Shown: positions 10,129 through 63,787 of the stretch, piece after piece
How positions within the stretch are numbered: position 1 is the first letter of the stretch
Layout: every line of letters starts with the position of its first letter
Assembly (NCBI GenBank): GCA_947089145.1
Contig: CAMUJH010000001.1
Coordinates: forward strand, 1-64,000
Direction of reading: 5' to 3'
Source of the DNA: an uncultured Hungatella sp.
Lineage (GTDB): Bacteria; Bacillota; Clostridia; Lachnospirales; Lachnospiraceae
Length of the DNA: 64,000 nucleotides
Notes under the pieces: generated by a model
Database searches by the model: none
What the model saw: the letters and a program-made list of their open reading frames with translations, nothing else
What the model was told of the DNA's origin: nothing
Program-made: the position numbers and the translations under genes

Positions 10129-10176
10129 CATGTCTCCTCCTCACATACTATGTTTTTCTCTCCGTTTTACCGCAGA

Positions 10177-11400: not shown

Positions 11401-11475
11401 AATGCAAATGTTTAACATTCATTTTCTTAAGTTTAGGCATTATTTCTTTTAGAAATATTTCCATTAACATGCCAA

Positions 11476-11516: not shown

Positions 11517-11562
11517 CCTTTTATCTTACTCTTTAGATATTTTCCTGTCTTTTTGTCAGTTT

Positions 11563-46708: not shown

Positions 46709-46712
46709 ACCT

Positions 46713-47116: not shown

Positions 47117-47557
47117 ATGAGGGAATTATCAGTTTACTACTGCAATAAGTGCGGCTTCTACGCATACTTCCAGCTGCCTAAGAACGCTGTCTGCCATCAT
47201 TGCAATATACCTCTGACACGTCTGGATATGAATCACCGCGATTTTACAAGTCTTAGCTATGAAGCCCGGGACCGTCTTATTACTCTCAAGATGATCGAAG
47301 CAGTTCCCTCTTTAACGAACCGCATTACCGCACCAGAAAAGTTATATGAGCAGAGAAAGCTGGTAGGCGCCCTGACTCAGCAGATTTTAGAATTGGAAGC
47401 CGAGAATAGCAAACTGAATGAAACGCTGGAATGGATGCATGCCACGATCTGGGATGAGTTGAAAAAGAAACAGGCTCTGAAGGAAGAAATCCGCCGTTTT
47501 AAAGCATTGATCCCTCCGGCTGATAAGGATGTCCAGCAGCAGCTGGCTGAATATTAG
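47117..47557 (+). CDS. Zinc-ribbon and coiled-coil protein of unknown function
   Basis: A 146-residue protein with a small zinc-ribbon-like N-terminus (YCNKCGFYAYFQLPKN, then CHHCNIPL, giving four cysteines at about 9, 12, 26 and 29) and a C-terminal coiled coil at residues 80-135 (LTQQILELEAENSKLNETLE). I do not recognise the family; it looks like a conserved clostridial small protein that may bind nucleic acid or a partner protein. GGAGG six bases before the ATG supports the start. It is single, between two dispersed repeats. Confidence 0.7.
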   Translation: MRELSVYYCNKCGFYAYFQLPKNAVCHHCNIPLTRLDMNHRDFTSLSYEARDRLITLKMIEAVPSLTNRITAPEKLYEQRKLVGALTQQILELEAENSKLNETLEWMHATIWDELKKKQALKEEIRRFKALIPPADKDVQQQLAEY

Positions 47558-47620
47558 CACTAGCTTGCGGATACTGGCCTGCAGAAATATCAGGCGCTGT
47601 ATTCATCGGGATTTCCGCTG

Positions 47621-47787
47621 GAGCGTGTCTGAAAATTGCTTTCCGTCAGCTGTGCGTCACAGTTTGTGGAAGATTTTGCCTGAATGAAGGAGGCGTAGCG
47701 GGCTGCGCCCTCCGAATGAGGGCCAATACACCGCAAGGCGGAGCGGGCAGCGATCTGCGTTGACTGAATTTGATTCAAATACGCCCC
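47621..47787. repeat. MITE-like element, copy 2
   Basis: It starts GAGCGTGTCTGAAAATTGCT and shares CTTTCCGTCAG, GTGCGTCACAGTTTG, GGAGGCGTAG and CGAATGAGGGCC with copy 1. The right inverted end is degraded (ATTCAAATACGCCCC). The internal hairpin GCGTAG-CGGG-CTGCGC differs from copy 1 by changes that still allow pairing. Confidence 0.8.
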
Positions 47788-47948
47788 TCTGACATTTTAC
47801 AAACGGGAAGCCAGATGGCGGGCATAAGGTTTCTGACGTGGTCTAAATCCCCATGATGAGATGAAATCCGTAAATAAAAGTCGGGACGCCCTGCAGCCAG
47901 TACATCCCTGTTAAAGCATGGCTACGGGAATCCCGTTTTTATGAACAG

Positions 47949-48101
47949 CTATGCTGTCCCGTTGTTGTCAGAGACATACCGGGCAATCAGCCGATCCAGC
48001 GTTACCTGCATCTGCGCGACGGTTTTCAGCAGTGTCTCATTATCCTTTTTCAGTTGTTCATTCTCGGCCTTAAGGCTGGCGATCATATCTTTTTCGTTCA
48101 T
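47949..48101 (-). CDS. 50-residue coiled-coil protein
   Basis: A 50-residue protein starting MNEKDMIASLKAENEQL and continuing as a heptad-repeat helix (LLKTVAQMQVTLDRL) to ARYVSDNNGTA. GAGGAGA lies about eight bases upstream, so it is likely translated. The style resembles the N-terminal coiled coil of IS66-type transposases or a small accessory ORF of such elements, but no other IS66 gene is present; it may be a remnant. After its stop, ACGGGATTCCCGT forms a small hairpin. Confidence 0.55.
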   Translation of the reverse strand: MNEKDMIASLKAENEQLKKDNETLLKTVAQMQVTLDRLIARYVSDNNGTA

Positions 48102-48436
48102 CTTATTTTTCTCCTCTTTCTATTGAATGCCTTAACTATACCCTATTCCTCTCCCTTTGAAAAGGGGATTCAAACGCATAATTCGACAAATTCACCTTAA
48201 GAATAATTTTACAAAATTTTTGCAGCTTCTGCATCGGGAAAAATTCACTATATATGCCATATCCCTTATCTTTGACCCACAACTTATGGTTTTCTCTTCC
48301 AATTTTTCCTCTTTTTTCCAGTGTCGAATCGTGTCGACAAAAACTTTACATCTTTTCTTCCTGATGGTAAGAAACTTGTTTCAAAATCGTAAGAATTAGC
48401 GCCTGATTTTCACTGGAAATGGAACTATTCCTATGT

Positions 48437-48442
48437 TATAAT
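48437..48442 (+). promoter_or_regulatory. -10 box of the small wall-binding protein gene
   Basis: TATAAT lies 35 bases upstream of the start at 48477; a good -35 box is not visible 17 bases before it. The gap 48102-48476 is AT-rich and otherwise holds nothing I can support. Confidence 0.5.
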
Positions 48443-48476
48443 GAGGTCAATCAAAAGAGAAGGAGGTTGTGATGGT

Positions 48477-48797
48477 ATGAAGAAAAGAAATGTTACCGCA
48501 GTTGCACTTTCCTCCTTGTTGATGCTCCTGTCTGCGTTCCCTGTCTATGCAGGTACATGGACGGCACATGACGACGGTACGTGGTCCTACCTTAACGAGG
48601 ATGGCGAAAGCGTGGTCGGCTGGATCGAAGACGGCGATGACGTATATCATCTTAGCACAGAGGGTCTTAAGACCACTGGATGGTTCAAGTCAAAGGGTTC
48701 TTGGTACTACTTTGACGAAGACGGCGTTATGGCATCAGACACCTGGATTGACAACTATTACGTAAATCCGGATGGCAAGTGGAAGGGCACGAGATGA
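48477..48797 (+). CDS. Small secreted cell-wall-binding protein
   Basis: A 106-residue protein with signal peptide (MKKRNVTAVALSSLLMLL, cleavage after VYAG) and four choline-binding-type repeats (GTWSYLNEDGESVVGW, DVYHLSTEGLKTTGW, SWYYFDEDGVMASDTW, YYVNPDGKW). It has no other domain. It is a short relative of the 495-residue wall protein at 45221-46708. AAGGAGG lies about 10 bases before the chosen ATG. A hairpin terminator follows. Confidence 0.85.
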   Translation: MKKRNVTAVALSSLLMLLSAFPVYAGTWTAHDDGTWSYLNEDGESVVGWIEDGDDVYHLSTEGLKTTGWFKSKGSWYYFDEDGVMASDTWIDNYYVNPDGKWKGTR

Positions 48798-48811
48798 ACC
48801 CCCAGGAGGCT

Positions 48812-48846
48812 AAAGAGAGGCGTGGTTAACACCATGTCTCTTTTTT
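48812..48846 (+). terminator. Terminator after the small wall-binding protein
   Basis: AAGAGAGGCGTGGT pairs with ACCATGTCTCTT around TAAC and is followed by TTTTTT, 15 bases after the stop codon. Confidence 0.75.
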
Positions 48847-48875
48847 GGTTTCTGAAAACGTCCCTCCGATGTCTT

Positions 48876-49841
48876 CTAAACCATGCGGTTCATATACGAT
48901 TTCTTCTGCTCCAGATCGCTGTGGACATAAATATCCATGGTTACTTTTACTGAAGAATGCCCCAGTATTTCTGAAAGGGCTTTACTGTCAAACCCGTTTT
49001 CAATCCATCGGGAAGCGAACGAATGACGCAGGGAATGAATATTAATATCAGGTATGCCGCACTTTCTTAGCAGATTCTTGAATTTTCGCTGTACTCCTCT
49101 GGGTTCCATGCATTTGGATGTCCCTGTCAGAATATAGCAGGCATCGTTTTTCTTGTATCTCTGCATTTTTAAAATAAGAAAATCCGGGAGTGGTATCTCC
49201 CGGACTGAAGTCCCTGTTTTAGGCGTTCCTATATATATGATAGTTTTTGACAGTGTTGCCTCTGCAATACCTTCTGTATCCAAATTCCGAATCCTGGAAA
49301 CCGTTCGGTTTATCTGTATGGTTCCTCTAAGCCAATTGACATCTTTCCACTGAAGCCCACACAGTTCTCCTACCCGGATTCCGGTGCAGATGCAAATCAT
49401 CAGCCCCAGTTCAAAGCTTTCTCCCGATCCGTTCAGATAGTGGAGCAGTTTCTCCGAATTCTCCTGACCAAGCGTACGCATATACGTTTTTTTATATTTG
49501 GGAATATAAAAGCAGAGTTTTTCTGCTGTTCCAATGCCCTTCTCTTCTCCCATGTGAAGAATTCTCTTCAGAAGAAATACGATCAGACGCAGGGTGCTCC
49601 AGGACAGTTCCTCTTTCTGCTTCTCCTGCAGATACTGCTCCAGCGCCCAATTATTCAATTTCTCTGCCTGCCACCCTCCAAGGCATGGCAGAATGTGTTT
49701 TTCGATTACAGTGATGTACACCGCATAGGTGGTGGGCTTCACCTTGTAACGGATAGATGTCTCCCATTGGCTGCATAGTTGAGATATGGTATGGCCTCCA
49801 GGCTGCTCCAAATATTCTTTTTCTCTTATCATTTTATCCAT
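48876..49841 (-). CDS. Tyrosine recombinase (phage-type integrase)
   Basis: A 321-residue site-specific recombinase with an N-terminal SAM-like core-binding domain (about 15-115) and a complete catalytic domain. Arg is in CTGIRVGELCGLQW, the beta-hairpin lysine in GTPKTGTSVREIPL, His-x-x-Arg in HSLRHSFASRW, His in LGHSSVKVTM and the nucleophile Tyr in DIYVHSD. All residues needed for activity are seen. It is of the ICE/phage integrase type. No excisionase is adjacent. It probably brought in part of the accessory DNA to its right, though I could not locate att repeats. Confidence 0.93.
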   Translation of the reverse strand: MDKMIREKEYLEQPGGHTISQLCSQWETSIRYKVKPTTYAVYITVIEKHILPCLGGWQAEKLNNWALEQYLQEKQKEELSWSTLRLIVFLLKRILHMGEEKGIGTAEKLCFYIPKYKKTYMRTLGQENSEKLLHYLNGSGESFELGLMICICTGIRVGELCGLQWKDVNWLRGTIQINRTVSRIRNLDTEGIAEATLSKTIIYIGTPKTGTSVREIPLPDFLILKMQRYKKNDACYILTGTSKCMEPRGVQRKFKNLLRKCGIPDINIHSLRHSFASRWIENGFDSKALSEILGHSSVKVTMDIYVHSDLEQKKSYMNRMV

Positions 49842-49847
49842 TTCCCC

Positions 49848-49958
49848 CTACCTCTCCATCAAATGCCAGAAGATTAGCAGGCTTCGCCATCCCGCAGCCC
49901 CTTTCAGTTCTGCAGATTTAAGTCCTTCTATAACGATCTCTTCCAAAAACGCGGCCAT
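49848..49958 (-). CDS. Possible 36-residue ORF upstream of the integrase
   Basis: A short frame MAAFLEEIVIEGLKSAELKG, ending LLIFWHLMER, stops seven bases before the integrase start. Codon use looks protein-like and the frame stays open for another 16 codons upstream, but no ribosome site is visible. It may be the tail of a truncated gene. The rest of 49959-50239 is AT-rich and shows nothing else. Confidence 0.3.
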   Translation of the reverse strand: MAAFLEEIVIEGLKSAELKGAAGWRSLLIFWHLMER

Positions 49959-50239
49959 GCGACGATTTCTGTCAAGCGATGTTTGTACTGTCCTGTATCT
50001 CCCCGTGTCCTATGATGTGGCTTATACAATATCTGTCTGCCAGACTTTTTGCTTTTCTCAAGAACACAGGCCAAATATTTCCTTATTTTATTCTAGTAGA
50101 TACAGCAAACGAATGTCAAGAAAATTGTAAAATATGGAAAAAATGGAAAAAATATCCATTTGGTATATTATATGAAACTAAGCATCCCCTGCCGGGTTAT
50201 ACACTTAAGGTAGTACCATATTTGAGAGGGGATAGGCCT

Positions 50240-50482
50240 ATGAATGAGCAGGAATTATTGGCAAACCGTATAAAACACTACTGCGAAGCCCGCGATATGT
50301 CTTTTTACACTCTGGCAAATCGTGCTGCCGTACCGCTGACCACATTAATGCACATCGTCAATTGCTCAACAAAAAATCCAGGGATTTTTACCATTATAAA
50401 AATCTGCAGCGGGCTGGATATTACCATCACAGAATTCTTTAATTCGGAAGAATTTGTGAACATAGAATTTGAGATCGAGTAG
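50240..50482 (+). CDS. Small XRE-type helix-turn-helix regulator
   Basis: An 80-residue Cro/CI-type DNA-binding protein: NRIKHYCEARDMSFYTLANR, the recognition helix VPLTTLMHIVN and TIIKICSGLDITITEFF, the usual XRE ending. It has no extra effector domain. GAGAGGGG lies before the ATG at 50240; the longer upstream frame has no support. It is divergent from the integrase and could regulate it, like a phage or ICE repressor. Confidence 0.85.
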   Translation: MNEQELLANRIKHYCEARDMSFYTLANRAAVPLTTLMHIVNCSTKNPGIFTIIKICSGLDITITEFFNSEEFVNIEFEIE

Positions 50483-50678
50483 CTATGCCCATAAGTTAAG
50501 GCAGCCGCAGGACTGAGGGAATCTGTATCCTGCACCGGGTTTTGTCAGCATGGGGAAATCCTCTGAAAGGCAGTTTTTCTCCATGGCAAACACGGATGCT
50601 TACGCTGAAGAATCCGTACTATCTTTGGAAGATAACGGCGAAGCTGGTGTTGGAGCATGTCTGGGCAATATCGCCCCC

Positions 50679-50775
50679 CATGCGCCCGACGGGGAAAGCA
50701 CCTTCACCCATGGAAGTCTGGCGGGCGCAAGGGGCATACCTGAATGTATGCCGCCTAATCGGCGGCGGACTTTTA
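50679..50775. repeat. 100-bp dispersed repeat family B, copy 2
   Basis: It shares with 46713-46811 the blocks CCATGCGCCC, GGCGGGCGC, CCTGAATG and GCCTAATCGGCGGCGGAC. The open frames that cross it on both strands are not supported as genes. The remaining part of 50483-50931 holds no clear feature besides the leader of the LytTR gene. Confidence 0.8.
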
Positions 50776-50931
50776 TAATAAAAAGGGTGATATATGGTTT
50801 TTCTGCTATATAGGTTATAGAGCAAATATACTATAAGCGAAAGGCTGATTATCTGCTGCTCTCATAAAATTATACAATTATCTGTGCATAAAAATTACTT
50901 ATTGTTGGGCAGCAATTACAGGAGATACTAT

Positions 50932-51648
50932 ATGATAACGGTTGCTGTATGTGATGATCAAAAAGCGGATCTGGATAAAATAAAGCATTTGGTCGAGAAT
51001 GCCCTGGTTTTAGAACAGGCAGGCGCAAATAATGTAATATTATATAACGACTCTATTTCTCTTATGAATGACATAAGAAACAATAGAAAGATTGATCTGC
51101 TCTATCTGGACATTATCCTTCCATCCGGTTCCGGCTTTACAGTTGCAGATGAAATCAGAAGAATCAATGATTCAATAAAAATTATTTTTGTGTCTGATTA
51201 TAATGATCTGGTTTACCAAAGCCTTTTTTATCAGCCTTTTCTATTTATACGAAAAAGAATGCTGGAATATGAGATCAATGGTTCTATCCGGTATTTTCTC
51301 AAGTATCAGGCAAAACATTACCCCATATGTAAATTTAAAGTACATGGACATGCACTCTCTGTTAATTCAAAAGATATCTTATATATGACCAGCAATCTTC
51401 ATAGCCTGACTGTCTGTCTAAAAGATACCAGTTTTACCTGCAGAGACAGCATTACCAACAGGCAAAAAGAACTGCATAATTATGGCTTTGTCCAGTCGCA
51501 CATTAGCTGCCTTGTAAATTTGAGATATGTGGAAAAAATACGCAAAAATGAGATAATTATGCAAAATGGCGATTCTCTAGCCTTAAGCAGGGGTAAACAA
51601 AAGCAGGTGGAAAAAGCATATCTTTTGTATCTGCGTGAGCCCTTTTAG
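50932..51648 (+). CDS. LytTR-family response regulator (AgrA type)
   Basis: A 238-residue regulator with an N-terminal receiver domain (VAVCDDQKADLDKI, phospho-acceptor Asp60 in LLYLDIILPSGSGF) and a C-terminal LytTR DNA-binding domain (DILYMTSNLHSLTVCL, FVQSHISCLVNLRYVEKI, LALSRGKQKQVEKAYL). Such regulators usually answer a membrane kinase that senses a peptide. None is encoded beside it, so it is an orphan here. AGGAG seven bases upstream fixes the start at 50932. The usual receiver K-P pair (KPF-type) is replaced by QPFLFIRK. Confidence 0.9.
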   Translation: MITVAVCDDQKADLDKIKHLVENALVLEQAGANNVILYNDSISLMNDIRNNRKIDLLYLDIILPSGSGFTVADEIRRINDSIKIIFVSDYNDLVYQSLFYQPFLFIRKRMLEYEINGSIRYFLKYQAKHYPICKFKVHGHALSVNSKDILYMTSNLHSLTVCLKDTSFTCRDSITNRQKELHNYGFVQSHISCLVNLRYVEKIRKNEIIMQNGDSLALSRGKQKQVEKAYLLYLREPF

Positions 51649-52741
51649 GCAGAGAAATCAATTCAGTATTTAGTCAAACCTCCGGATGGTTCATAGTGAC
51701 CCCCTTTCATTCATGGTGGTTCCGAAAAAGTAGCATGGGGTGCTTTGAAAGCAACCTATGACAAAAAACAACAAGGTATGACACGGCAATTGAACGCAAT
51801 CAAACTACATGGTATATTAGCTATTGAAACCTGCTTAACACACCTCATACCATAAGTGATATTTAGCCTTGGTTCGCTTTGCACATTTTGTCCAGTTGCC
51901 GCCAAGTGCCGGGTATATTTCCGTGTCGGATTTTATCCCTCTCCTCACCTTATGGGGGTGTTTTCTGTCACACTGTTATATGGTTAAATTAGCAAATAAA
52001 TATAAAGGGGTATTCATTATAAGGTAAGAACGAAGGAAATAATGTATTCATTAAAAGGAGTGCCAGTGTTTTTATCAGCCATATGTTTCCCTGGCCAGCA
52101 AAGTCTGCCTTCTCTAGGCATAGCTTGGTTAAAAAATTGACTTGGTTAAAAAATTTCAGATTTTGATTGCCACATAGGAAAATATATGTTATTCTATGGA
52201 TAAGCTTTATCGCTGTATTGACACATAATACGAAAAATATTGAATATACTAAATACTACCGTGCGAAAATTCTTGTGAATTCAGCACCCGTTCTCTACGC
52301 CTATAAGCACACCTGCAAAATCAGACGCAGACTCCGCTTTGTGGACGCACAGATGACGCAGACATCGGGTATTGAATTCATTGTTATTTTCACATAACAG
52401 TAATAGAGCGTGTCTGAAATTGTTTCTTGTCAAATGCTCCTTCCGTTTTGTGGTCTATTTTGGCCAGATGTGGGAAGCGCAACGGGCTATATTGATTGAA
52501 TTTTGCCCCAATGCGCCATGCCTTTTAAGTATTTCATAAAGCGGGGGCAGATAGCCGGAACGTACTTTCATACGCGCTCCAGTTGTAATATACACCTTAA
52601 GGAAATCTATATCTGCGTTCTAGCATCATATAGCTCTGACTAATGCCTTTTGAGGCAAGTGAGAGTTTTTTAAATATGGCATCTGCCAGCTAAGTATTTT
52701 TACTATAGTGTCATTAAAAAGGAAAGGGGGGGATAGATATC
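51649..52741. other. Non-coding or decayed stretch
   Basis: No intact gene is supported here. A stop-free frame at 51700-51855 (plus) reads GGSEKVAWGALKATYDKK and then diverges, which looks like the end of a decayed small gene. CACC-TTATGG-GGGTGTTTT near 51952-51972 may be a weak terminator. TGGTTAAAAAATT occurs twice in tandem near 52127-52155. A third MITE-like copy lies at 52404-52579. Confidence 0.5.
52404..52579. repeat. MITE-like element, copy 3 (most diverged)
   Basis: It begins TAGAGCGTGTCTGAAATTG and ends CTTTCATACGCGCTCC, an inverted partner of the start, with the word GCGCAACGGGCTA in the centre where copies 1 and 2 have their hairpin. The interior has drifted. Confidence 0.65.
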
Positions 52742-52918
52742 ATGGCCGAAGAGTATTATAAAGCTCGTATAGACACTTTTTTACCGTCTATGGATATTAA
52801 ACCAAAAGATAGCAATCCATTTGGATATACACAGGAGAATATAGAGAAGAGGCGTCAGCAAATACTCGATGCTGGCCAGCAGATTGAAAAATTTGTGACA
52901 TATAGGACAAATGGATAA
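52742..52918 (+). CDS. 58-residue protein upstream of the HExxH/FRG pair
   Basis: A 58-residue charged protein starting MAEEYYKARIDTFLPSMD and containing NPFGYTQENIEKRRQQILDA, probably helical in its second half. AAGGGGGGG lies about nine bases before the ATG, so translation is likely. I do not recognise it. It is on the same strand as the 1184-residue gene but 380 bases upstream, so membership in the same unit is uncertain. Possibilities are a small antitoxin or regulator, or the remnant of a larger gene. Confidence 0.55.
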   Translation: MAEEYYKARIDTFLPSMDIKPKDSNPFGYTQENIEKRRQQILDAGQQIEKFVTYRTNG

Positions 52919-53247
52919 CCTCCCTTTAGCAACCCTATTCTCCATAAATTTCCTAAAAGGTGTAAAATTCTTTAATCAGAGTTCTGCGGGGCCTTGTTAC
53001 ATCACTTTGATGGTATCGAATATAATTTTTAGCGTTTCGTGGAACTCTGCATTCGAGAATAACTGTCCAAAGTTTTTTCTCAATGCATCATACTAAAGGC
53101 ATTACTGCAGAATACTTAAATCTTTTTCGCTTTCCATCCGTTCTTTTTCTATAATCAGAGTATATTCCTCTGATGACTTTATTTTCCCTTAAACATATAA
53201 CATAAAGGTTTCGCTAGTTGCACAGTATGCGTATAAAAATGCAGGCG
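52919..53247. other. AT-rich gap before the HExxH gene
   Basis: No intact gene. Short minus-strand frames (for example one with LRKNFGQLFSNAEFHETL ending at about 52998) could be the tail of a decayed gene. The right end holds the promoter region of the 1184-residue gene. Confidence 0.35.
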
Positions 53248-53268
53248 CTTTCACTTATTTAGTGAAAG
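53248..53268. promoter_or_regulatory. Inverted repeat before the HExxH gene
   Basis: The perfect arms CTTTCACT and AGTGAAAG flank TATTT, ending 30 bases before the start codon and 17 before the ribosome site. This is a good position for a repressor operator or an RNA hairpin in the leader. Confidence 0.5.
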
Positions 53269-53297
53269 TATTAAAAACTTTGCGAAGGAGAATTCTC

Positions 53298-56200
53298 ATG
53301 TGCAGATGGGAAAGTGAATATTCAACACATGTTCTTGAATTAGTTAGAAATAATGGGAAGCCTACGATTGATAGAAATCAAAATGGCCATTTTCTATTAT
53401 TTGATTATTTCGATATTCTAATCCACGAGGAACTAACCGGAAAAAGGAAAGTATATAAAAATTATTTTTCTATTGCAGACACATTTCATGATGATAAAGA
53501 CTATAAAGTTTCTTATAAAACTTTAAGTTTATATTGTAAAAATAGCGAAAAGCTTAAAAATCCCTTTGGTTCTATGGGGGATGGGGAAGAGTTATCACAG
53601 ATCCCCTTTTTAGGTTTAATACAAATTAGTTTATGTAAGGAAAATTATCAGCTGCAAAATAGCTCACAGTCGGTAATTGTTGACGAATTTCTCACCAGCT
53701 GTGAAAACAAGATTCTAAACGCAATCCAGAAGACTAAGTGTTTTTCTGAGAATGATCCCACAGTTATGCAATTATATAGAAGTTCAACAACAGGAGATTT
53801 CTGTCTGGCAATGCGAACCGATTCAGCTGATAAAGTTTATAATGTAGCTCTTGCACTAAATGGATCTCAAAACTCCCCTACGGAATGCCCTGTATTGACT
53901 TATACAAATGTCGGGATTGAATGTAAGGTACTTTCTAATGGTTCCTATGGCACATTAAGCCAAACCTTTATTGATAATCATATTGACTTAGCCTTTGCAC
54001 TCCGTTTTTCAGCAGATGGAGGGCTGCTTCCTATATTAGAACAATATGAAAAAGTACACAATAACGGCAATCTAGAGGCTGTCAAGGGCCTTTTCGGAAG
54101 ATATGATTATCTCTTACATATAGGTATAAAAGACTTTGCTGAAATATACCCCCTGCTGTGCGAAAAGAAGTTCGGCAAATTAGAGCATAGTTCTGCTGGT
54201 AAAGAGAGATCTGAATTAAAAGATATTCTGAATTACCCACATATAAAAAATATAAATGAACGTCTTTTAGTGGATCTGAAAATACAAAAAAGCGAAATTA
54301 GTAACAACCCCCGTACTGATGTGGCAGAAAGGGACAGGGCAGTAACGGAACGAAATGAAATGCTCTATACAAGGATAATGAAACTGAAAGACTGGAAAAC
54401 ATGTTTTTCAAAAGAGAATCGTTCCTTTCACGATCTGCATAGAGGCATGGTAGGCATTTACAAAACTTTTTCCGCTCTAGGAATGGAACGTGAGGCATAT
54501 CTGAACTGGAAAATATTCTGCCAGGACATGGAAACGCTTTGTGAAAGTCTAGAGTATTGCTTTGAAAACTGCAAAACTATAAATAAAGATCCCACAAAGG
54601 ACGAATCCTGGAAACGTTCCTATCGCCTTTGGCTGTTAAAAGATTGGAGAATTAATATTCAGGCAATTAATCAGTATACACGTTTAGTCCAGAATATTAA
54701 TTATCAGACTTACCAATCCCCGATTTATGAGATTCAAACTCAAATTGATACGGAAAAAACAATGATTGCGTACAGACAGTCTATGATGTCTTATATGGAA
54801 TCCTACACCAAAGACAAACTACGGCATAATGAAAATGTAGCTTCTATCATCCCTATTATCTATCCTGATTTATCAAAGGACAAAGTAGAGGTGACAGCTT
54901 CATTTATCAGCCAAAAAAGAGGCAATACTTATATAAAAACAGCAATTATGTGTACAGTGCCCTCTTTCGAGTATTTTGGAAGATTGTATGACCTTTTGCC
55001 TTGGCTGCTTCATGAAGCCTCTCACCATCTGAGAATTTTAGACCGTGAAGAGAGAAACCGTGATTTTGCAGAATATGTCTTTTCTCACATTTTTAATATA
55101 ACCATAGAAAACTCCCTACCAGAATTATCAGATGATATCCTATATCGTACAGTAGGGAGAGTTGAGCAGCGGCTGGTTGATATTATGACAAAAGTAACCT
55201 TAGATGATCTATTAAATGGCCAAGAGAATCCAAAGAATTTCTCCTTTGAAAAATTCTTTAGCAGAATTGACGGATATCTCAGGAAACTATTTTCTTCTGA
55301 GGACTCTGGAAAAGACATATGGGAATACGATATTGACAAAATCAGAAATAAAGTCTTCCAATTTTATTTAGGAGAGTACAGAAAGGCCGGAAACCTGACT
55401 GACGAACTTTTGGATCAGCTTCTGAATATAAAGCAGGAAAAGTTCATAGCAAAAGAAAAGCATCTTGCAGATACGCTTTCTGAAGGTCTGTTAAAACGCT
55501 ATAGCGAACAGCTGGCTGCAAGAGAACAGCAGAGCCTTCAGGAGAACGAGTGTATTGTCTTAAACGACCTGTGGAAAACGAAGGAATGGTTCGAAAAGGA
55601 ATTGGCACAAGTCCATAACACCCTAATACATAAAGGGCTTTCCAAGGATGGGATTAAGGATTATATCTTTAAGGTTACAGAGCTTTATAAAATTGCAAAT
55701 GCATTCAAGGCAATTAACACTGGAAAGGTACTTGATAATAAATATGCAAAAGAATTTCTGGAAAAAGTATTTACTGAGTATTTAAAAGAACAGAAAGAGC
55801 GAAATTGGGATACCATTGATGAAGTTTTCCGCAGCCCCGGAACTTTGCATGTATTACGGAAATTGGGGTTATTGAATGGACGAAAAGATACCTTTTGTTC
55901 CCAAATGATGGCTGTTCTCCACAAATTAAATTACAAAGATATAAATCGTCATAAGGAAATGAAAACTGTAATTTATCGTGAGGCATTTGCCGATCTATTG
56001 ATGGTGACATCGCTGAATATTAATAGTTTTGGATATATCCGCCAAGTTCTACAAACTATTAGTGATGCCCGAGTTGACGAGGAAGCTTATTGGTTCAATG
56101 ATATCAACAGGGATCGTTTTCGAATTGTAACAGCTATTCTGTTATCTGAGGAACTAAACTTTTCACTAAATGATAGCAGCCCCTGTGACACTGACAGTAT

Positions 56201-56852
56201 ACGTCTTGATGGAACCAGTATCGTCGAAAAAGGAATTATCTATTGTGAATATACACTCAAATGTATTTATGAAAAGCTTATGGAAATAGAAGATATTCAA
56301 CAGGATGATGTGAAAAAAGAGTCTGTAAATTTTTTCCTTGGCAGTATCAAACGTCAATTAAATATATTTCTTTCCCAATCGGGAGACGATGAAATATATG
56401 ACAGTACCTTTTTATATATTCTGCTGCATGGAAAGGTAAATGCTAACAAAGATAGTCTAAAATTATGGGAGCAATGGAAGTATGACAAAATATCCGAAAT
56501 CTGCGAACCTATAAAATATATTTTTCTGCGGTTGGAATGTTTCTGTGTTGGTTTAAACAATATTCTCCAAGACCGTCAGCTAATTGTGCCTATAAATATT
56601 TATAAACATATGAAAAAAATACGTGACAAAATTAAAAAGCATAACGGTATTGGCTGCTGCTGGGAACAGGAATGGGATTGCCTCATAGATCCCAAAAAGG
56701 ATGTTGGCAAATTCTTTAATGAGCCTGAACTGGTGTTTGATAAAAAATCGTATCAAAAGCTTGAAAAAACTATTGAATTTATACAAAATTATTATTATTA
56801 TAACCGCTTTAAAATGGCAGGAGAGGAAATAGATAATGAGCACAACAAGTAA
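53298..56852 (+). CDS. Large unknown protein with HExxH metallopeptidase-like motif
   Basis: I do not recognise this 1184-residue protein. It has no signal peptide or membrane segment. Residues 1-370 are mixed alpha/beta with no known motif; 380-560 are mostly helical. At 572-577 stands HEASHH within LLPWLLHEASHHLRIL, a hydrophobic helix of the zincin type, and at 895 a glutamate in VIYREAFADLLMVTS, resembling the third zinc ligand and E-x-x-x-D of gluzincin peptidases, about 320 helical residues later. This suggests a zinc metallopeptidase with a large insertion; activity is inference. The start at 53298 follows AAGGAG by seven bases. It overlaps the FRG gene by 17 bases. Base composition is clearly more AT-rich than the core genome, indicating transfer. 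Confidence 0.75.
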   Translation: MCRWESEYSTHVLELVRNNGKPTIDRNQNGHFLLFDYFDILIHEELTGKRKVYKNYFSIADTFHDDKDYKVSYKTLSLYCKNSEKLKNPFGSMGDGEELSQIPFLGLIQISLCKENYQLQNSSQSVIVDEFLTSCENKILNAIQKTKCFSENDPTVMQLYRSSTTGDFCLAMRTDSADKVYNVALALNGSQNSPTECPVLTYTNVGIECKVLSNGSYGTLSQTFIDNHIDLAFALRFSADGGLLPILEQYEKVHNNGNLEAVKGLFGRYDYLLHIGIKDFAEIYPLLCEKKFGKLEHSSAGKERSELKDILNYPHIKNINERLLVDLKIQKSEISNNPRTDVAERDRAVTERNEMLYTRIMKLKDWKTCFSKENRSFHDLHRGMVGIYKTFSALGMEREAYLNWKIFCQDMETLCESLEYCFENCKTINKDPTKDESWKRSYRLWLLKDWRINIQAINQYTRLVQNINYQTYQSPIYEIQTQIDTEKTMIAYRQSMMSYMESYTKDKLRHNENVASIIPIIYPDLSKDKVEVTASFISQKRGNTYIKTAIMCTVPSFEYFGRLYDLLPWLLHEASHHLRILDREERNRDFAEYVFSHIFNITIENSLPELSDDILYRTVGRVEQRLVDIMTKVTLDDLLNGQENPKNFSFEKFFSRIDGYLRKLFSSEDSGKDIWEYDIDKIRNKVFQFYLGEYRKAGNLTDELLDQLLNIKQEKFIAKEKHLADTLSEGLLKRYSEQLAAREQQSLQENECIVLNDLWKTKEWFEKELAQVHNTLIHKGLSKDGIKDYIFKVTELYKIANAFKAINTGKVLDNKYAKEFLEKVFTEYLKEQKERNWDTIDEVFRSPGTLHVLRKLGLLNGRKDTFCSQMMAVLHKLNYKDINRHKEMKTVIYREAFADLLMVTSLNINSFGYIRQVLQTISDARVDEEAYWFNDINRDRFRIVTAILLSEELNFSLNDSSPCDTDSIRLDGTSIVEKGIIYCEYTLKCIYEKLMEIEDIQQDDVKKESVNFFLGSIKRQLNIFLSQSGDDEIYDSTFLYILLHGKVNANKDSLKLWEQWKYDKISEICEPIKYIFLRLECFCVGLNNILQDRQLIVPINIYKHMKKIRDKIKKHNGIGCCWEQEWDCLIDPKKDVGKFFNEPELVFDKKSYQKLEKTIEFIQNYYYYNRFKMAGEEIDNEHNK

Positions 56853-57978
56853 TGGAATAATGGTCAGATACGCTGAGGATCTGTCGGAAGTATATCAACA
56901 TATTCGTGCTATAGGGAAAGAAATAGAACAAGCAGACAGGAATTCTAATGTATCTATGTGGTTTCGCGGGCATACAAATGCATCTTACCATTTAGAACCA
57001 AGTATATTCAGGGATGCTGACTATCACTATAATCAAAAAGAAACATACAGTAATAATCATCTGCGTGAAGAGTACCGATTTCAAAGTTTTATGTCAAGAA
57101 ATTATGATAATGTAGATTATCGTATGCCGCAAACTATGATAGAGTGGCAGGAAGTAATGCAGCATTTTTTTGCAAAAACCCGATTAATGGACTGGAGTGA
57201 ATCTTTAATAATTGCATTGGAGTTTGCTCTTGAACCATTTATCACCCCTGTAAAAGATTTAGAGGTCAAAGAAAAATGCCGGACTGCAGAACCCACGATA
57301 TGGATACTACAGCCCAAGAAACTGAACAAGGCAGTATACCAGTCCTTTATTGAAGAAAATGAAAATAAGGGAAAGGGCTTAATTCAAAAGGCCGTTACAG
57401 TAAGAATAGAAAATAAGTCTAATCTGGATAAGAAGCGGCTGGTTAATGAAATTTGGGAAGAATTAAGCAGAGAAGCATCCCATGGAACCTATTATGACAT
57501 TGGCAATGAAAAGGATGAGAATATGAATGCCATGATTGGGTTATCTTCTCTGGAGATTATTCGTACTGCATATAAAGCAAGAGAAAACGAGGCTTTAAAG
57601 GCTTTTGAAATAAATCCCTTTTTCTATTTGCTTCTGAGATATTACTCCGATGGTATCCCAGTCCATATAGACAGCCTCCCGCCTCTTGCAATTATTCATC
57701 CCTATCATAGTCAGAGGATACGGCTGCAAAAAGGGGTATTCACAGTATTTCCCTATTATATTCCTGGAAAGCAGATGGAGCTGATTAAAGAAACTACTAA
57801 GTCATATCCTTCGTTTGGTATGGAATATATGAAGAACTGCATCCCTTGCCTGCATTGCATCCGAATTTTGAATCCGGAGAAAGTGGCAAAGGAGCTGAGA
57901 CAGACCGGCGCAAGGCGAAGCAATATATATCCTGAGATGCAAATCGTTTCGCAGGATATAGAAAATGTATCTAAGTAA
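56836..57978 (+). CDS. FRG-domain protein
   Basis: A 380-residue soluble protein with the FRG domain. The name-giving motif is in SMWFRGHTNASYHLEPSIFR (residues 40-59), and the second conserved block is QHFFAKTRLMDWSESLIIAL (109-128), the form of the family's QH-x-x-x-TRLLDW signature. FRG proteins are common on mobile elements and next to defence genes; their activity is not established. AGGAGAGG precedes the ATG, which lies within the last codons of the HExxH gene, so the two are coupled and probably act together. It shares the low GC of its partner. No clear terminator follows. Confidence 0.88.
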   Translation: MSTTSNGIMVRYAEDLSEVYQHIRAIGKEIEQADRNSNVSMWFRGHTNASYHLEPSIFRDADYHYNQKETYSNNHLREEYRFQSFMSRNYDNVDYRMPQTMIEWQEVMQHFFAKTRLMDWSESLIIALEFALEPFITPVKDLEVKEKCRTAEPTIWILQPKKLNKAVYQSFIEENENKGKGLIQKAVTVRIENKSNLDKKRLVNEIWEELSREASHGTYYDIGNEKDENMNAMIGLSSLEIIRTAYKARENEALKAFEINPFFYLLLRYYSDGIPVHIDSLPPLAIIHPYHSQRIRLQKGVFTVFPYYIPGKQMELIKETTKSYPSFGMEYMKNCIPCLHCIRILNPEKVAKELRQTGARRSNIYPEMQIVSQDIENVSK

Positions 57979-58297
57979 ACTATATACCTTGATTATTATA
58001 ATTGTCAAAAATTTTAATATTCCTCGGTTTACACAAAAACTGACCAACAGTACCAGAGGGTATGCAAGTCTTTGATTGCCCCAAGTACTGAATTCGCTGT
58101 CACGGCTGCTTTCCTCAATCGAGAAAATGCCTTGGCAGTTAATCCTGAGTGTTCTGCATGGATCAAATACTAATAAACAATAAGTACCTTTTACCCAACT
58201 ATTTGACAGTTGGGTAATGGAGAATTCCAATTCTTCAGATATTGCAGAAAGCGTCCTATGGTTAGGTATTATATCCATCTGTTTCACGATACAATGA
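57979..58297. other. Gap between the FRG gene and the next convergent gene
   Basis: AT-rich at the left, then a stretch near 58040-58230 that stays open on the minus strand but has no start or ribosome site I trust. I see no supported gene. Confidence 0.35.
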
Positions 58298-58362
58298 AAT
58301 ATGGAATAAGTCAAAAAGGCCGTATGTATAAACATACAGCCGCCTTTGGCTCATTCCATATT
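58298..58362. terminator. Nested hairpin terminator
   Basis: Outer arms AATATGGAAT/ATTCCATATT (58298-58307, 58353-58362) enclose an inner stem from AAAGGC and GTATGT to ACATAC and GCCTTT (58313-58347). T-rich flanks exist on the minus strand, where it follows the stop of the gene at 58366. Confidence 0.7.
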
Positions 58363-58365
58363 CCA

Positions 58366-58956
58366 TCAGTCCTGGCAGAGGGGCAAATGCTTCAGCACCT
58401 CTGCCAGTTCTTTAATTGTTGACTGCCTTTCACAAAACAGCTGCTCTCTATTCTGACCCTCTCCACTCAGCCTGTCCACTAATTGGCCATAACGGTCATC
58501 TTTGATTATCAGAAGGGCAAAAGCAAAGTGTTCATAAAGAGAGTCTTGCCCCAAATGAAAAGGTATTGAAACCTTGTAAGAATTTTTCCCGCAAACATAA
58601 ACAACAGCCGGGCCGGGAAGCGAGTCTGGCAATACATAGAAGCCTTCAATTGTTTTCCCCAGCCTCTCCATAACTCTTATGCAATGTCTGCCGAGGGGCA
58701 TGGGTGTGTTCCGTCCTTCCTGGAAAGCAGCAACCAGCTGCTCTCTGTCATCGCCGCACTCCATAATGCCTCTTTCCCCTGTATGAACCGTCTGTTCAGC
58801 AGGGCAATTATTTGAATCCGACAATGCATAAGTATCTCCCGCAGTTTCCTCCAGCTTCTCCATAGCTGTTATGCAATGTCCGTCGAGGGGCATGGGTGTG
58901 TTCCGTCCTTGTTGGAAAACAGCAGCAGGCTGTTCTCTATCACCGTCACGTGCCAT
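58366..58956 (-). CDS. Unknown protein with internal duplication
   Basis: A 196-residue protein I do not recognise. Its first 120 residues hold two copies of a module of about 45 residues: DREQPAAVFQQGRNTPMPLD and then HCITAMEKLEET, repeated later as DREQLVAAFQEGRNTPMPLG and HCIRVMERLGKT. The second copy continues into an alpha/beta segment (FYVLPDSLPGPAVVYVCGKN) and a helical C-terminus. No membrane segment or known catalytic motif is seen. The start at 58956 follows GAGAGG. It lies 75 bases downstream of the XRE regulator on the same strand. Confidence 0.65.
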   Translation of the reverse strand: MARDGDREQPAAVFQQGRNTPMPLDGHCITAMEKLEETAGDTYALSDSNNCPAEQTVHTGERGIMECGDDREQLVAAFQEGRNTPMPLGRHCIRVMERLGKTIEGFYVLPDSLPGPAVVYVCGKNSYKVSIPFHLGQDSLYEHFAFALLIIKDDRYGQLVDRLSGEGQNREQLFCERQSTIKELAEVLKHLPLCQD

Positions 58957-59031
58957 AGTTTCCTCTCTTTCCCCCATCCGAACCGACTGTCCGGCAGGGT
59001 TAATTATTTATCTCAACTCCTTCAAAATATA

Positions 59032-59622
59032 TTAATGTCCTGCCGGGACAGACAGAACTCCTACAATATATTCCTTCAGGTATTGAAACCGCTTTCTCAG
59101 CAACAGCAAATCTTCATTAAGATTTTCCCCTTCCGTAATCTTCATGGTTTGTATCAAAATCTTTAATACTGCAATATTCTCAATTGTGCCAAATTGGGAA
59201 AAATCGCTGAGGCATTTAAGAAAATCCGGATCTTTCCGAAATATTTCCTCTACCGTCTTTACGGGATCAATAGGTTCCCCGGAAAATGAGTAGTATTCCT
59301 CCTGGGGAGTTATGACTCCGCTATACCCAGCCTGTACGAGAAGGGTCGAATAAGGTGTTGCCAGGAAAGGGGCCAGTGCTTTCAGTGTCTTCCTTGTTGG
59401 CCTGGTATCATATTTTGTTTCCAGATGGCATAGCTGTGCCTGAGTAATGCCGATTTTCTCGGCAAATGCTCTTTGGGACAGGCCCATATTCTCCCTGGCC
59501 GCCTTAATTCTCACTGCCAATGGTTCCGGCTCCTTCAGACCAAATAAGGAATAATCTGCTTCAGATTGCGAATGCCCCTTTATGTCCTGCTCCTCGGTGC
59601 TGGAATTTGACGCTTCAACCAT
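59032..59622 (-). CDS. XRE-family regulator with C-terminal extension
   Basis: A 196-residue protein with a helix-turn-helix of the Cro/CI type in the middle (residues about 42-100: VRIKAARENMGLSQRAFAEK, then GITQAQLCHLETKYDTRPTR) and a C-terminal helical part of about 90 residues that may bind a ligand or partner. The N-terminal 35 residues are acidic and probably unstructured. AAGGAGG seven bases upstream supports the ATG at 59622. It is divergent from the P-loop ATPase gene across about 230 AT-rich bases, and probably controls both directions. Confidence 0.85.
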   Translation of the reverse strand: MVEASNSSTEEQDIKGHSQSEADYSLFGLKEPEPLAVRIKAARENMGLSQRAFAEKIGITQAQLCHLETKYDTRPTRKTLKALAPFLATPYSTLLVQAGYSGVITPQEEYYSFSGEPIDPVKTVEEIFRKDPDFLKCLSDFSQFGTIENIAVLKILIQTMKITEGENLNEDLLLLRKRFQYLKEYIVGVLSVPAGH

Positions 59623-59782
59623 TTTGTGCCTCCTTGAATTGTATTTTTGACCTGCCCATATTTTTATCAATGTACAGATTTGTTTCTCACCAATTTTATC
59701 ATAATTTAATCTTCAGATCAATATATTATATATTTTTTTATTCTTTTTGATATTATCTTTCAAAACAATAATATCTTATCCA

Positions 59783-59812
59783 TTGACAAACCTGTATCCT
59801 GGAAATTATAAT
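59783..59812 (+). promoter_or_regulatory. Promoter of the P-loop ATPase gene
   Basis: TTGACA (59783-59788) and TATAAT (59807-59812) with an 18-base spacer, a consensus sigma-A promoter, 40 bases before the start codon. A divergent promoter for the XRE gene must lie in the AT-rich part to its left. Confidence 0.85.
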
Positions 59813-59851
59813 ATTTCATATCTATTGTCTTGACACCATGGAGGATTTCAT

Positions 59852-61777
59852 ATGGCAATCAGAAAGATCAACAGCAGCATACAGCCCGTTTTCAAGCAAA
59901 ATGACATCACCGAATTAGCCAAACTGTTTCCAAAAGGATTTTCATATTTTTTTATGCCCTCGTTGCCCCCAAAGAATATGGAAGACAGCGAAGCTTTCTA
60001 TATTCCCAATGAAAATATGGAATCTCAAATATATAAAGCCGTCTCTGGAGATGAAAGCAGCCTGTCTGTTCTTATTGGAGAAAGAGGGAGCGGAAAGTCT
60101 GCCTTGATCAGACATTGCCTTAAGGCTGCTGGAAATCAGGCCAAAATTGAGAAGAACACAATATTTCTGTTCAGCTTTTTCAGCTGCCGCCCGCCTCGTT
60201 CAGTATTCCCATTTCACATTGAAAACCGGATTCGTTCTGTAAATGCCAAGTTGGAAGAGTCTTATCCAAAGCTTTCAGAGTATTTTTATTCCCCTCAGGG
60301 GCAAAAACATTTTTTTGATTTTACAGAAAAACTGCAGGCTGATATTTTGCAGTATACAAAATTCAATGTCTCGGAACCCATGAGCCCGTCCCGGCAAGAG
60401 GCGATGGCATTAGAACACGCCCGCAAACACGCACCCTCTGTCTTTGAGGCGCTGAAATTACAGTTTCTTCTCTCATCCTCTCTGTGTCCTATCCAGCGTC
60501 TTGTTATTTCCATAGACGGCATTGATGGGTTTGCCCCATGCCAAATAGAGGAAATGCTTTACGCTTTTATAACATTATATAAGCAGTTAAATTCCTTTCC
60601 GCTGGATAAAATGCCTAAATACTGTATTGTCAACCTGCTGATTTCTCTCCAGCCAAGTTCATACCGCTGTCTTTATCAGGCAAGAAAACAGCAGGCCTGG
60701 CCTATAAGCCAAGTAATTATCATGAATAATTGTTTTAATTTAGAAAAATATTTCAGCAGGCGACTTCGCCGCTATTCTCGAAAATCATCAGCACAGAATA
60801 CAGATGCCTGGCGAAAATGCCAGCAGCAATTGGGACTGATCTGTCAAAAGTTCGGCGGAAAATATGACTCCATGATCTGGAGCCTATCCTTTCATAGCGT
60901 TCCTGAAGCATTAACGCTTTATGCAAAAATACTATGCAATCAAACCTGGATGCGCCAGGGACAAAGAGACTCTGACCATAGCTGGTTTAACACTGAAACC
61001 TATGTGCTGAATAATATCAGCGTGATCCGCGCCATAGCCTGCGGTGAAAACGAAATATTTGTTAATACTCCTGAATCACATGTATCTAACTTATTATATA
61101 ATACGCCTGATAAAGATTACAGCATTCTGTGTCTCTATATTATCGCATTATTTAAAAGACATCTGGGTGCTGATGAAGCATGCGGTTCTGATTTTTTGGT
61201 TGTAAATAATATAATATCCTTTTTTCAAGACCTTTTCCCTACTATTCCTGATATATCAGCAGATGTGCATACAGCGCTTAAGTATCTGTACAGCCGCAAA
61301 ATATTAGTAAAAAGCTATACAGATACAGCAGTCCCGGAGAAACACAGAGACACTGACAGCTTAGGGAAACATAGCCGCTTATATCTGTCTTCCAAGGGGC
61401 TGGAGCTGTGGAATATGCTGCAGGCAGACAGCGTCCTTATGGAAATATGCAGGGAGGATTATTACAGAACATATGACACTGAGGGCTGCTGTAATAATAG
61501 ATACGGCAGCTATGTGTTAATGGAAGATCAGCAGGATGAACTTTTTATAGATTCGTGCAGAATAGTGTCCTCGCTTATTATCCTGGAAGAAACTTATATT
61601 GAAGATGCCAGAAAAAATCAAACAGTCTGTCTGCTGACAGAGGCATTGGGAACTGAAATGATGTGCTCTTATCTGATGCAGGGCATTAAAAAATCTATGG
61701 AATACTCCGGACTTATACGCCAGCCAAATGTGTATGAGGCTTTTACGCAAGTCAATGAAAAAATCCATACATTATGA
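59852..61777 (+). CDS. P-loop NTPase of unknown family (AAA/STAND-like)
   Basis: A 641-residue soluble protein. Walker A is VLIGERGSGKSALIRH with Lys82, and Walker B is RLVISIDGIDGF with Asp222 and Asp225; about 110 residues of helical insert lie between Walker A and B. The C-terminal half is helical, with winged-helix-like stretches near 450-500 (DVHTALKYLYSRKILVKS). This resembles ORC/Cdc6-like or STAND ATPases found in defence and conflict systems, but I cannot name a family. GGAGG seven bases upstream fixes the start. It is single on the plus strand, divergent from the XRE pair, and ends at a strong bidirectional terminator. Confidence 0.8.
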   Translation: MAIRKINSSIQPVFKQNDITELAKLFPKGFSYFFMPSLPPKNMEDSEAFYIPNENMESQIYKAVSGDESSLSVLIGERGSGKSALIRHCLKAAGNQAKIEKNTIFLFSFFSCRPPRSVFPFHIENRIRSVNAKLEESYPKLSEYFYSPQGQKHFFDFTEKLQADILQYTKFNVSEPMSPSRQEAMALEHARKHAPSVFEALKLQFLLSSSLCPIQRLVISIDGIDGFAPCQIEEMLYAFITLYKQLNSFPLDKMPKYCIVNLLISLQPSSYRCLYQARKQQAWPISQVIIMNNCFNLEKYFSRRLRRYSRKSSAQNTDAWRKCQQQLGLICQKFGGKYDSMIWSLSFHSVPEALTLYAKILCNQTWMRQGQRDSDHSWFNTETYVLNNISVIRAIACGENEIFVNTPESHVSNLLYNTPDKDYSILCLYIIALFKRHLGADEACGSDFLVVNNIISFFQDLFPTIPDISADVHTALKYLYSRKILVKSYTDTAVPEKHRDTDSLGKHSRLYLSSKGLELWNMLQADSVLMEICREDYYRTYDTEGCCNNRYGSYVLMEDQQDELFIDSCRIVSSLIILEETYIEDARKNQTVCLLTEALGTEMMCSYLMQGIKKSMEYSGLIRQPNVYEAFTQVNEKIHTL

Positions 61778-61800
61778 TTCCATATTGTCGGCTTCTGAAA

Positions 61801-61840
61801 AACCGGCTTGCTTCAGAAGCAAGCCGGTTCCTGATTCTTT
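61801..61840. terminator. Bidirectional terminator between two convergent genes
   Basis: A perfect 14-base stem (AACCGGCTTGCTTC, 61801-61814, and its complement at 61816-61829) is followed by CCTGATTCTTTT on the plus strand. It serves the P-loop gene and probably also the convergent amidase gene. Confidence 0.85.
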
Positions 61841-63063
61841 TATCTGATTGTAAACGGGCTGGTAAACACACTCTTCCGCTCCGCCACGTTTTCTGCCTCC
61901 ACCTTAAATATAAAATCCCCTCTTGGGCACTGATTGACAACCATCGCCTCATCTACTCGTCCATCAAGATAGAAACGCTTGGTGTAAGGCGAAATATCAA
62001 TGCTGCAGATAATCTCCCCAGTATCTACACAATATATCTCTGCGTAGACCCTGCTCAGGCTTTGGGGCGAGGAAACACTCCCTGCTATGCCATACATTTT
62101 CCCATATGGCAATACGCCGGATGGGTAGCTTGTCACATCAAGGGTAATATCCCCGGGAGAAGGAGCCACTACAGTGAACTCCGTGGCGACTACAGTGTAT
62201 ACATTTCCTCCGGCATTCGCCTCGACAACGTAGCGATAACTTCCCGGAAGCAAAGTATTAAAAATTAAATATGGGTCCAAGAGCTGTTCAAGGTTCCCTG
62301 TCGGCGAATTGATATACTGTGTCTTGCTCTGTACAGCCTCACCAGACTCATTCACAATTTTGCCCGTAATGCTGTCGATGCTTCCAGACGTGCAGCTTAC
62401 TGTCCCGCCTAAGCCAAAGAACATCCCCTGCTCTAAACAAATATTAGATGGCGCCTTCAAATCAGTGACTGTCACTGCCTCTGGCGGTACCGCTCCTTCA
62501 TCAATTCCTGTTTCAATATCAGAAGAAGTCATATGTACAGCATAGACTTCCAGCTGCCCGATGTGAGACATACTGTTTATATCATCTGCATACAATCTCT
62601 CATTATTTTTCTTCATACTATGGGCATATACGGTCAGGTACCCCCTGCTATCTTTCCCACCACATAACGTTACGTGAAGATATCGGTTGCAGGCTGGGCA
62701 ATATGTAAAAACCGGATCTCCAACAGATACACTGCCCGAATTCTCATCAAAAGACACAATCAGCCCCCATTGAGTGTACTCGGTACTAAGTTTAGATGCA
62801 TTCCCATATGCCTGCAGAGTCCTGTATAAGTTCCCCGCTCCGGCTTCCGACACCTGTACTCCCCCGGCGGTCAGACACTGGGACACAAAGTTAGCGCAGT
62901 CGTTGGTGCGATCGCTGTCCCAGTTTCCTTGTGCATACTCTATCGCTTTATTCGGCTGATAGGTATCCGCATAGGCCACATAAGAGGGATGGCATACTGC
63001 AGCGAAACCGAAAATTATTAAGCTTAATAACATTAAACCGGAAAACTTTGTGATTCTGTTCAT
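61840..63063 (-). CDS. Secreted Amidase_6-type protein with Ig-like domains
   Basis: A 407-residue exported protein. Signal peptide (residues 1-32, LMLLSLIIFGFAAVCH, cleavage near AYADT). An Amidase_6 domain (about 33-178) follows, with Tyr/Asn motif YQPNKAIEYAQGNW and the putative active-site cysteine in NDCANFVSQCLTAGG, and its histidine in YLHVTLCGG. Two beta-sandwich domains (about 200-300 and 305-407) finish the protein (GSYRYVVEANAGGN, GDFIFKVEAEN). It probably cleaves or binds a wall peptide bond. It belongs to the same secreted-surface theme as the two wall-binding proteins. Confidence 0.87.
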   Translation of the reverse strand: MNRITKFSGLMLLSLIIFGFAAVCHPSYVAYADTYQPNKAIEYAQGNWDSDRTNDCANFVSQCLTAGGVQVSEAGAGNLYRTLQAYGNASKLSTEYTQWGLIVSFDENSGSVSVGDPVFTYCPACNRYLHVTLCGGKDSRGYLTVYAHSMKKNNERLYADDINSMSHIGQLEVYAVHMTSSDIETGIDEGAVPPEAVTVTDLKAPSNICLEQGMFFGLGGTVSCTSGSIDSITGKIVNESGEAVQSKTQYINSPTGNLEQLLDPYLIFNTLLPGSYRYVVEANAGGNVYTVVATEFTVVAPSPGDITLDVTSYPSGVLPYGKMYGIAGSVSSPQSLSRVYAEIYCVDTGEIICSIDISPYTKRFYLDGRVDEAMVVNQCPRGDFIFKVEAENVAERKSVFTSPFTIR

Positions 63064-63514
63064 GGTAATCCCCCTTTTTCACGTTATTGATATAATATAT
63101 ATTTATTTATGATATAGAGTTTATCACTATATGGCAGACTTGTCAAGCCATTCCTTTATTTTTCTGCTGAATTACGATTCAATAAAATTGAACATTTTGA
63201 AATTAAAAGATAGCATTTTGAAAGATAAAAAATTGTGGCTGTAATTTTTCTTTGCCTTGCCAAAATCTAATACTGCCTTGTCAGCCAAAAATCTCTGTGT
63301 TAAAATTATGGAAAACTTCTGGAAATTATTTTCATAAATACGGAAATCTAAATCCCTTTTGTTTCTTTTTTAGAAATAATCTTCTTCCAGGTCTTCTTTT
63401 CAGCTTTAGTTGGAATTAAACTGTATAAAATCGCAATGGCGGTAAAAGCATAAACGGTATTAAGCAATGGTTTCTATTAAAATATCAGGCTAACTGCAGA
63501 GAGGGAAATTATTT
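63064..63514. other. AT-rich gap after the amidase gene
   Basis: It holds the promoter region of the minus-strand amidase gene at the left and that of the small gene at the right. The central part is AT-rich and contains nothing I can support. Confidence 0.4.
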
Positions 63515-63787
63515 ATGAACAAGTTGGATTGGTATCAGATTTTAGGAAGACCACATGTTAATATTTCATCCGAAGACGAGCGCCTTGTGCTTGAAGCAAT
63601 TGCAAATAACACCATTGGAAAATAGATAGGCGGATTAAGCTTATCAGATTTAAACAGAGCCGCTGATCTGTTAGAGGATCTTAGCATTCAATATATTGCG
63701 GCAAATGACTTTAAAACGGCTGCCGCCGCCAGAGAAAGCGCCTACGAAGCAAGAAGGCTTCTTAAGGATAATCAAAAACCTATTTAA
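63515..63787 (+). pseudogene. Small gene interrupted by an in-frame TAG
   Basis: The frame begins MNKLDWYQILGRPHVNISSE with GAGGGAA before the ATG, reaches NNTIGK, then has TAG at 63623-63625. It continues in the same frame with IGGLSLSDLNRAADLLEDL and on to KDNQKPI and TAA at 63785-63787. The second part has protein-like composition with helical Ala/Arg/Glu residues, and would otherwise be a continuous 89-residue protein. A nonsense mutation is the simplest explanation. I do not recognise the family. Confidence 0.55.

Follow-up and report, generated by a model that had tools for sequence, protein, structure and literature searches.

The 64,000-nt stretch analysed here (the window; positions 1 to 64,000 of contig CAMUJH010000001.1 from an uncultured Hungatella sp.) carries two overlapping genes on the forward strand: a large one, here called BIG, whose product contains a HExxH motif, and directly behind it a smaller one, here called FRG after the FRG domain of its product. 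A preliminary description of the sequence had proposed them as a coupled pair in AT-rich DNA near an integrase, and a recheck reproduced its coordinates, the HEASHH motif at residues 572-577, E895 and the 17-base overlap exactly. The mechanically called open reading frame (ORF) of BIG opens at a GTG, 36 nt 5' of the ATG used in Table 1. The small protein matches the Pfam FRG model PF08867 over residues 41-133 with 61.3 bits, where the cut-off is 25 (E = 1.7e-16), which bears out its earlier assignment. The AT-rich setting was also confirmed: GC content is 0.35-0.37 over the pair as compared to ~0.48-0.53 over the greater part of the window's first 46 kb, and a tyrosine integrase gene lies 3.4 kb upstream of BIG.

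The same arrangement recurs wherever we found BIG. Eight full-length BIG proteins (that of the window and seven others, 1138-1250 aa as ORFs) and one reduced copy were recovered, and in all nine loci an FRG gene encoding 358-380 aa follows directly downstream on the same strand, at a distance of -61 to +45 nt, with the two genes overlapping in five loci. Homologues of BIG thus consistently adjoin FRG genes, and the proposed coupling of a HExxH protein with an FRG protein is well supported. Over the eight full pairs, BIG identities correlate with FRG identities (r = 0.97, Mantel p = 4.5e-4), which indicates co-inheritance of the two genes, not contact between their products.

As a control we used 31 loci with other FRG genes: 12 from genomes other than the window's own in a search of the order (13 of 392 genomes matched) and 19 further ones from a search of the family (23 of 169 matched; three of the 22 non-own genomes had already been counted). 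A BIG relative was present in none of them among ORFs of at least 80 aa, nor in eight viral loci with FRG genes. These 31 loci are represented by 29 FRG ORFs, as none was recognised in L085 and L143; at L130 the FRG gene starts at the contig end, so that its upstream gene falls outside the contig. Three control loci (L088, L131 and L133) have another HExxH ORF of more than 500 aa within 5 kb, which weighs against the specificity of the control; at L131 this ORF (594 aa, LAHELGHAY), which we take to resemble oligopeptidase F, lies directly upstream of the FRG gene. None of the three is a BIG relative by profile. The open-licence literature, judged mostly by titles and the starts of abstracts, yielded no pairing of FRG with a metalloprotease, in agreement with the earlier view that the pairing is undescribed, and no mechanism for FRG proteins.

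Relatives of BIG were sought with a degenerate nucleotide pattern encoding the WLLHEASHHL helix and then with profiles. In a genome contig collection the pattern marked 47 stretches, three of which were kept (blastp E <=1e-155) and 44 discarded (best E 0.002 over 25 residues); three viral contig loci bearing the pattern were rejected as well, the open frames around the motif being short in each. The kept relatives come from Acetatifactor sp., a member of Lachnospiraceae (L058, 48% identical over the full length), and from two further Lachnospiraceae records (L044, 39%; L062, 38.5%). A profile from the first relatives, run on 397 genomes of the family to which the window belongs, added three more (4/397 with the window's own). 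A wider profile, run on 11 genomes of one genus, gave the full-length protein of G1288 and the reduced copy of G1290 (3/11 with the centre genome), and the genera of G971 and G940 returned their centre genomes only (1/4 and 1/9). Since a seven-row profile matched only the window's own genome among 169 genomes of the phylum, no relative outside the window's family was seen in that sample. All relatives come from Lachnospiraceae records or from the window's own family, and the full-length ones are 17-50% identical to the window protein.

Searching with a single BIG sequence missed these relatives: it matched one of 61 and one of 392 genomes, in both cases the window's own, and two of 391, namely its own and G467, where the match (E 0.006, 70 residues, three internal stops) was dismissed as chance. 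By tblastn, neither the window BIG nor its divergent relative at L080 matched plasmids or phages, and that at L079 gave no match in plasmids; a viral contig collection searched with BIG queries was likewise without a match. BIG is a family without a model in Pfam, NCBIfam, PADLOC or PHROGs in the versions searched, where no match rose beyond noise, and PDB sequences gave noise only (4ldz, 0.035; 0.2 or worse by profile). Lone weak matches of single members were taken as noise (QueF 0.018, EAD4 0.026, MLKL_N 0.0098, MmeI_N 0.047), as were a PADLOC "control protein" (0.0032), NCBIfam NF045802 (0.0037) and phrog_15697 (0.025).

The eight full-length proteins share a putative catalytic site in two halves. 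Each has a single HExxH in the same alignment column, and the residues invariant across all eight include H572, E573, H576, R586 and N587, the last two following the HExxH, and then Y893, E895, D899 and M902. The site halves are 286-344 residues apart, counted from the histidine to the later glutamate. The recurrence of both HExxH and ExxxD in shared columns, with one HExxH per protein, shows that the motifs are not due to chance. This set of ligands, a HExxH followed farther on by an ExxxD, is that of the gluzincin metallopeptidases, also named MA(E)-type. The earlier proposal of E895, within YREAFADLL, as third ligand gains support from its invariance and from that of D899 four residues on. 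H577 is variable (HQ in three relatives, HC in one).

Conservation along BIG peaks at about 455-499, 555-590, 905-920 and 1155-1170, with another peak near 162, and is low over most of 610-860 as well as near 337, 437 and 962-1062. The predicted helical insert between the halves of this presumed site is poorly conserved, as are some other stretches of the protein. Peak conservation falls on the block ahead of the HExxH rather than on the motif itself; within this block, residues 466-485 have very low model confidence. The features of both genes are collected in Table 1.

Table 1. Features of the BIG-FRG pair and the neighbouring integrase gene, in window coordinates
Feature	Coordinates	Strand	Details
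BIG gene	53298..56852	+	1184 aa plus stop; AGGAG ahead of ATG; seven further full-length relatives
BIG N-domain, residues 6-295	53313..54182	+	predicted tandem ferredoxin-like; invariant DYF36-38, GD166-167, GRY267-269
BIG block, residues 455-499	54660..54794	+	top conservation of BIG; invariant N466, N468, Q470, Q473, P475, Y477, K487, Y492
BIG HExxH, residues 572-576	55011..55025	+	invariant 8/8; presumed zinc ligands H572 and H576, presumed general base E573
BIG helical insert (predicted), residues 610-880	55125..55937	+	from conservation profile and secondary structure
BIG E895-x-x-x-D899	55980..55994	+	invariant 8/8; E895 as presumed third zinc ligand, D899 as presumed supporting Asp
BIG C-terminal tail, residues 1154-1171	56757..56810	+	from alignments; strong in five closer relatives, weaker in three distant ones
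FRG gene	56836..57978	+	380 aa plus stop; shares 17 nt with BIG
FRG domain, residues 41-133	56956..57234	+	W42-x-RG motif; TRxxDW at 115-120
FRG C-terminal block, residues 282-309	57679..57762	+	YHSxRIxxQxG; conserved
Tyrosine integrase gene (context, outside the pair)	48876..49841	-	PF00589, E = 4.9e-26

From this pattern we infer that BIG is a cytoplasmic metalloprotease of gluzincin type. Its motifs differ from those of gluzincins in being set so far apart around a large helical insert, and no peptidase model matched BIG above cut-off, the sole metallopeptidase hint being Tox-MPTase2 (E 0.041) at the HExxH region of one relative. The lack of a peptidase model match would also fit a HExxH that belongs to a metalloenzyme other than a protease or that binds a structural metal, with the pair working in some other way. 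Such an explanation seems very unlikely to us, given that both histidines, the glutamate of the HExxH, the later glutamate and the aspartate four residues on, which together make up the gluzincin peptidase pattern, are invariant in all eight proteins; it does have a precedent in HEXXH enzymes of the pathways for ribosomally synthesised and post-translationally modified peptides, which act without proteolysis according to the accessible part of PMC12636437. An AlphaFold2 model of BIG has moderate confidence (predicted template modelling score 0.49). Zincins are absent from the fold matches listed for BIG, lists that were filled by the N-domain, leaving the protease part unrepresented. The predicted N-domain gave a broad fold match that includes HemQ/chlorite dismutase; a heme function was rejected, and we read the match as a shared ferredoxin-like arrangement.

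In the FRG protein, W42, R44, G45, T115, R116, D119 and W120 of the FRG domain, together with Y290, H291, S292, R294, I295, Q298 and G300 of the C-terminal block, are invariant in all nine paired proteins. A profile search of 169 genomes of the family scored the window's own protein at 566 bits and the runner-up at 71, so the paired FRG proteins form a distinct subfamily. All nine match the PADLOC models for PDC-S15, a single-gene candidate. The window protein reaches 2.5e-25, a profile match only, which spans residues 24-164 of 380. In a fold search with the FRG model, the 13 best VIA rows were all ADP-ribosyltransferase (ART)-fold domains, and the protein is probably of this fold. Frg is also assigned to the ART superfamily in the available part of PMC9503650.

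A tight pair of this kind raises the question of whether FRG might be a toxin, active when free, with BIG as a keeper that binds or degrades it, as in toxin-antitoxin-like addiction, defence being secondary or absent. Strict pairing, gene overlap and the restriction to two genes would all suit such an arrangement. The reduced copy fits this reading well: at L101 (positions 9978-11836), a BIG of ~260 codons stands ahead of an intact FRG gene. Its frame holds a piece of the N-domain (profile positions 120-326) and, judged by eye, a BIG-like C-terminal tail, and has no HExxH. Keeper binding could perhaps run through the N-domain and the tail, as if the binding parts sufficed. However, no ATG, GTG or TTG occurs in the first 61 codons of the frame, and L101 may represent either just a decaying copy or a minimal form. 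A conserved catalytic protein of 1184 residues would moreover be a costly antitoxin, and to our knowledge the antitoxins of toxin-antitoxin operons are small. On balance, we consider addiction rather unlikely.

The neighbourhoods of the pair differ from locus to locus, and no third gene is common to all BIG-FRG loci. Matches across loci were limited to ppdK (pyruvate phosphate dikinase; L075 and L079), tyrosine integrases (the window and L080, 33% identical to each other) and ABC-type ATPases (L075 and L077). The distribution of BIG does not track the host: it occurs in 4 of the 397 genomes searched in the family, and the BIG proteins of L080 and L100, from one genus, are 20% identical, while those of L080 and L079, from different genera, are 30% identical. 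Cassette GC content is lower than that of the flanks in eight of eight loci, by 0.006 to 0.098. By its differing neighbourhoods and its distribution, BIG-FRG is a mobile two-gene cassette.

Several details of these neighbourhoods, a few genes of which were searched against protein families, are worth recording. The pairs at L075 (4168-12399) and L079 (7466-15395) are distant (BIG 18% identical), and each adjoins ppdK, the two ppdK products being 70% identical; because two distant pairs lie beside it, the ppdK site may be an insertion hot spot. At L080 (8387-18435) a transposase-family gene of PD-(D/E)XK type and the tyrosine integrase gene lie downstream of the pair, followed farther on by a YhcG/DUF1016 nuclease gene and then, by eye, by genes for ribosomal proteins and elongation factors. 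Two copies adjoin sugar aminotransferase or acyltransferase genes (DegT in L076; MBOAT and Acyl_transf_3 in L100). Polysaccharide-cluster-like (surface-polysaccharide) genes, judged by eye, start at least ~10 kb downstream of the window's pair, on the contig continuation 64001-84000 (L126).

Rfam at gathering thresholds gave no match in 46000-64000, and no exact repeat of at least 16 bases brackets the island in 44000-84000 (from inside the window to the end of the contig continuation examined). The repeat pairs listed in that range are 58692/58884 (27 nt, direct, within an ORF at 58366-58977 on the reverse strand), 45959/46001 (23 nt) and 46788/50753 (18 nt). At 59032-61777 a helix-turn-helix protein gene on the reverse strand adjoins a forward-strand gene for a 641-aa AAA/NACHT-like ATPase, recognised by weak matches only; those of the ATPase are below cut-off (AAA_16, 4e-5; NCBIfam Sll1717 family, 8.5e-6).

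We propose that BIG-FRG is a conflict cassette that moves horizontally and most likely acts against phages, BIG being the sensor-protease and FRG the effector, and assign this reading a probability of about 0.4. BIG, with a fast-changing helical insert between its catalytic halves and an N-domain predicted to be tandem ferredoxin-like, would detect an infection cue via the insert, the N-domain or both, and would then turn on the FRG protein, either proteolytically or through release from a complex. The FRG effector, as an ART-fold enzyme, would consume NAD+ or modify a target, and the infected cell would be halted; the overlapping or closely spaced genes would hold the ratio of the two proteins. 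The direction from sensor to effector is suggested by analogy and by BIG being the faster-changing partner. The more specific idea that a giant zinc-protease sensor with its recognition in the insert directly unleashes an ART-fold FRG protein by proteolysis, which would amount to an undescribed class of immunity, is in our estimate unlikely.

The roles might also be reversed, with FRG as sensor or signal maker (producing an ADP-ribose-type signal or a protein mark) and an activated BIG, perhaps addressed via its N-domain, cleaving host or phage proteins. The conserved catalytic core beside a variable insert is compatible with BIG as the effector, and the modelled N-domain has a plausible small-molecule fold, but its fold match is broad and indicates no function. 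The introduction of PMC9503650 ranks Frg domains among signal-generating enzymes, and the part of that paper available to us also names Frg a potential effector. We regard this reversed order as quite unlikely.

Among known systems, PDC-S15 shares with the pair the FRG domain and its profile matches in the small proteins; the match covers the FRG part only, however, and the 31 other FRG loci have no BIG relative. PDC-S15 is called uncharacterised in the accessible part of PMC12482510. A zincin-like metallopeptidase with a cleaved partner occurs in the nucleoside triphosphate (NTP)-dependent conflict systems described in PMC7159879; as with BIG-FRG, the putative protease is encoded with a partner, but the partner there, in the accessible portion of the paper, takes the form of a small peptide precursor beside NTPase systems, unlike FRG, and the term "Frg" is absent from that portion of the main text.

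The FRG effector class is thus already known, and the partner family and the pairing are new as far as searched. FRG proteins are catalogued as phage-defence candidates, and their pairing with BIG bears on how they are triggered: for one FRG subfamily there is a dedicated partner with presumed active-site residues that are identifiable by position, which turns the question of the FRG trigger into a simple two-gene experiment. Overall, the unit formed by a giant predicted zinc protease and a predicted toxin-like FRG enzyme may represent an undescribed defence system of some gut bacteria.
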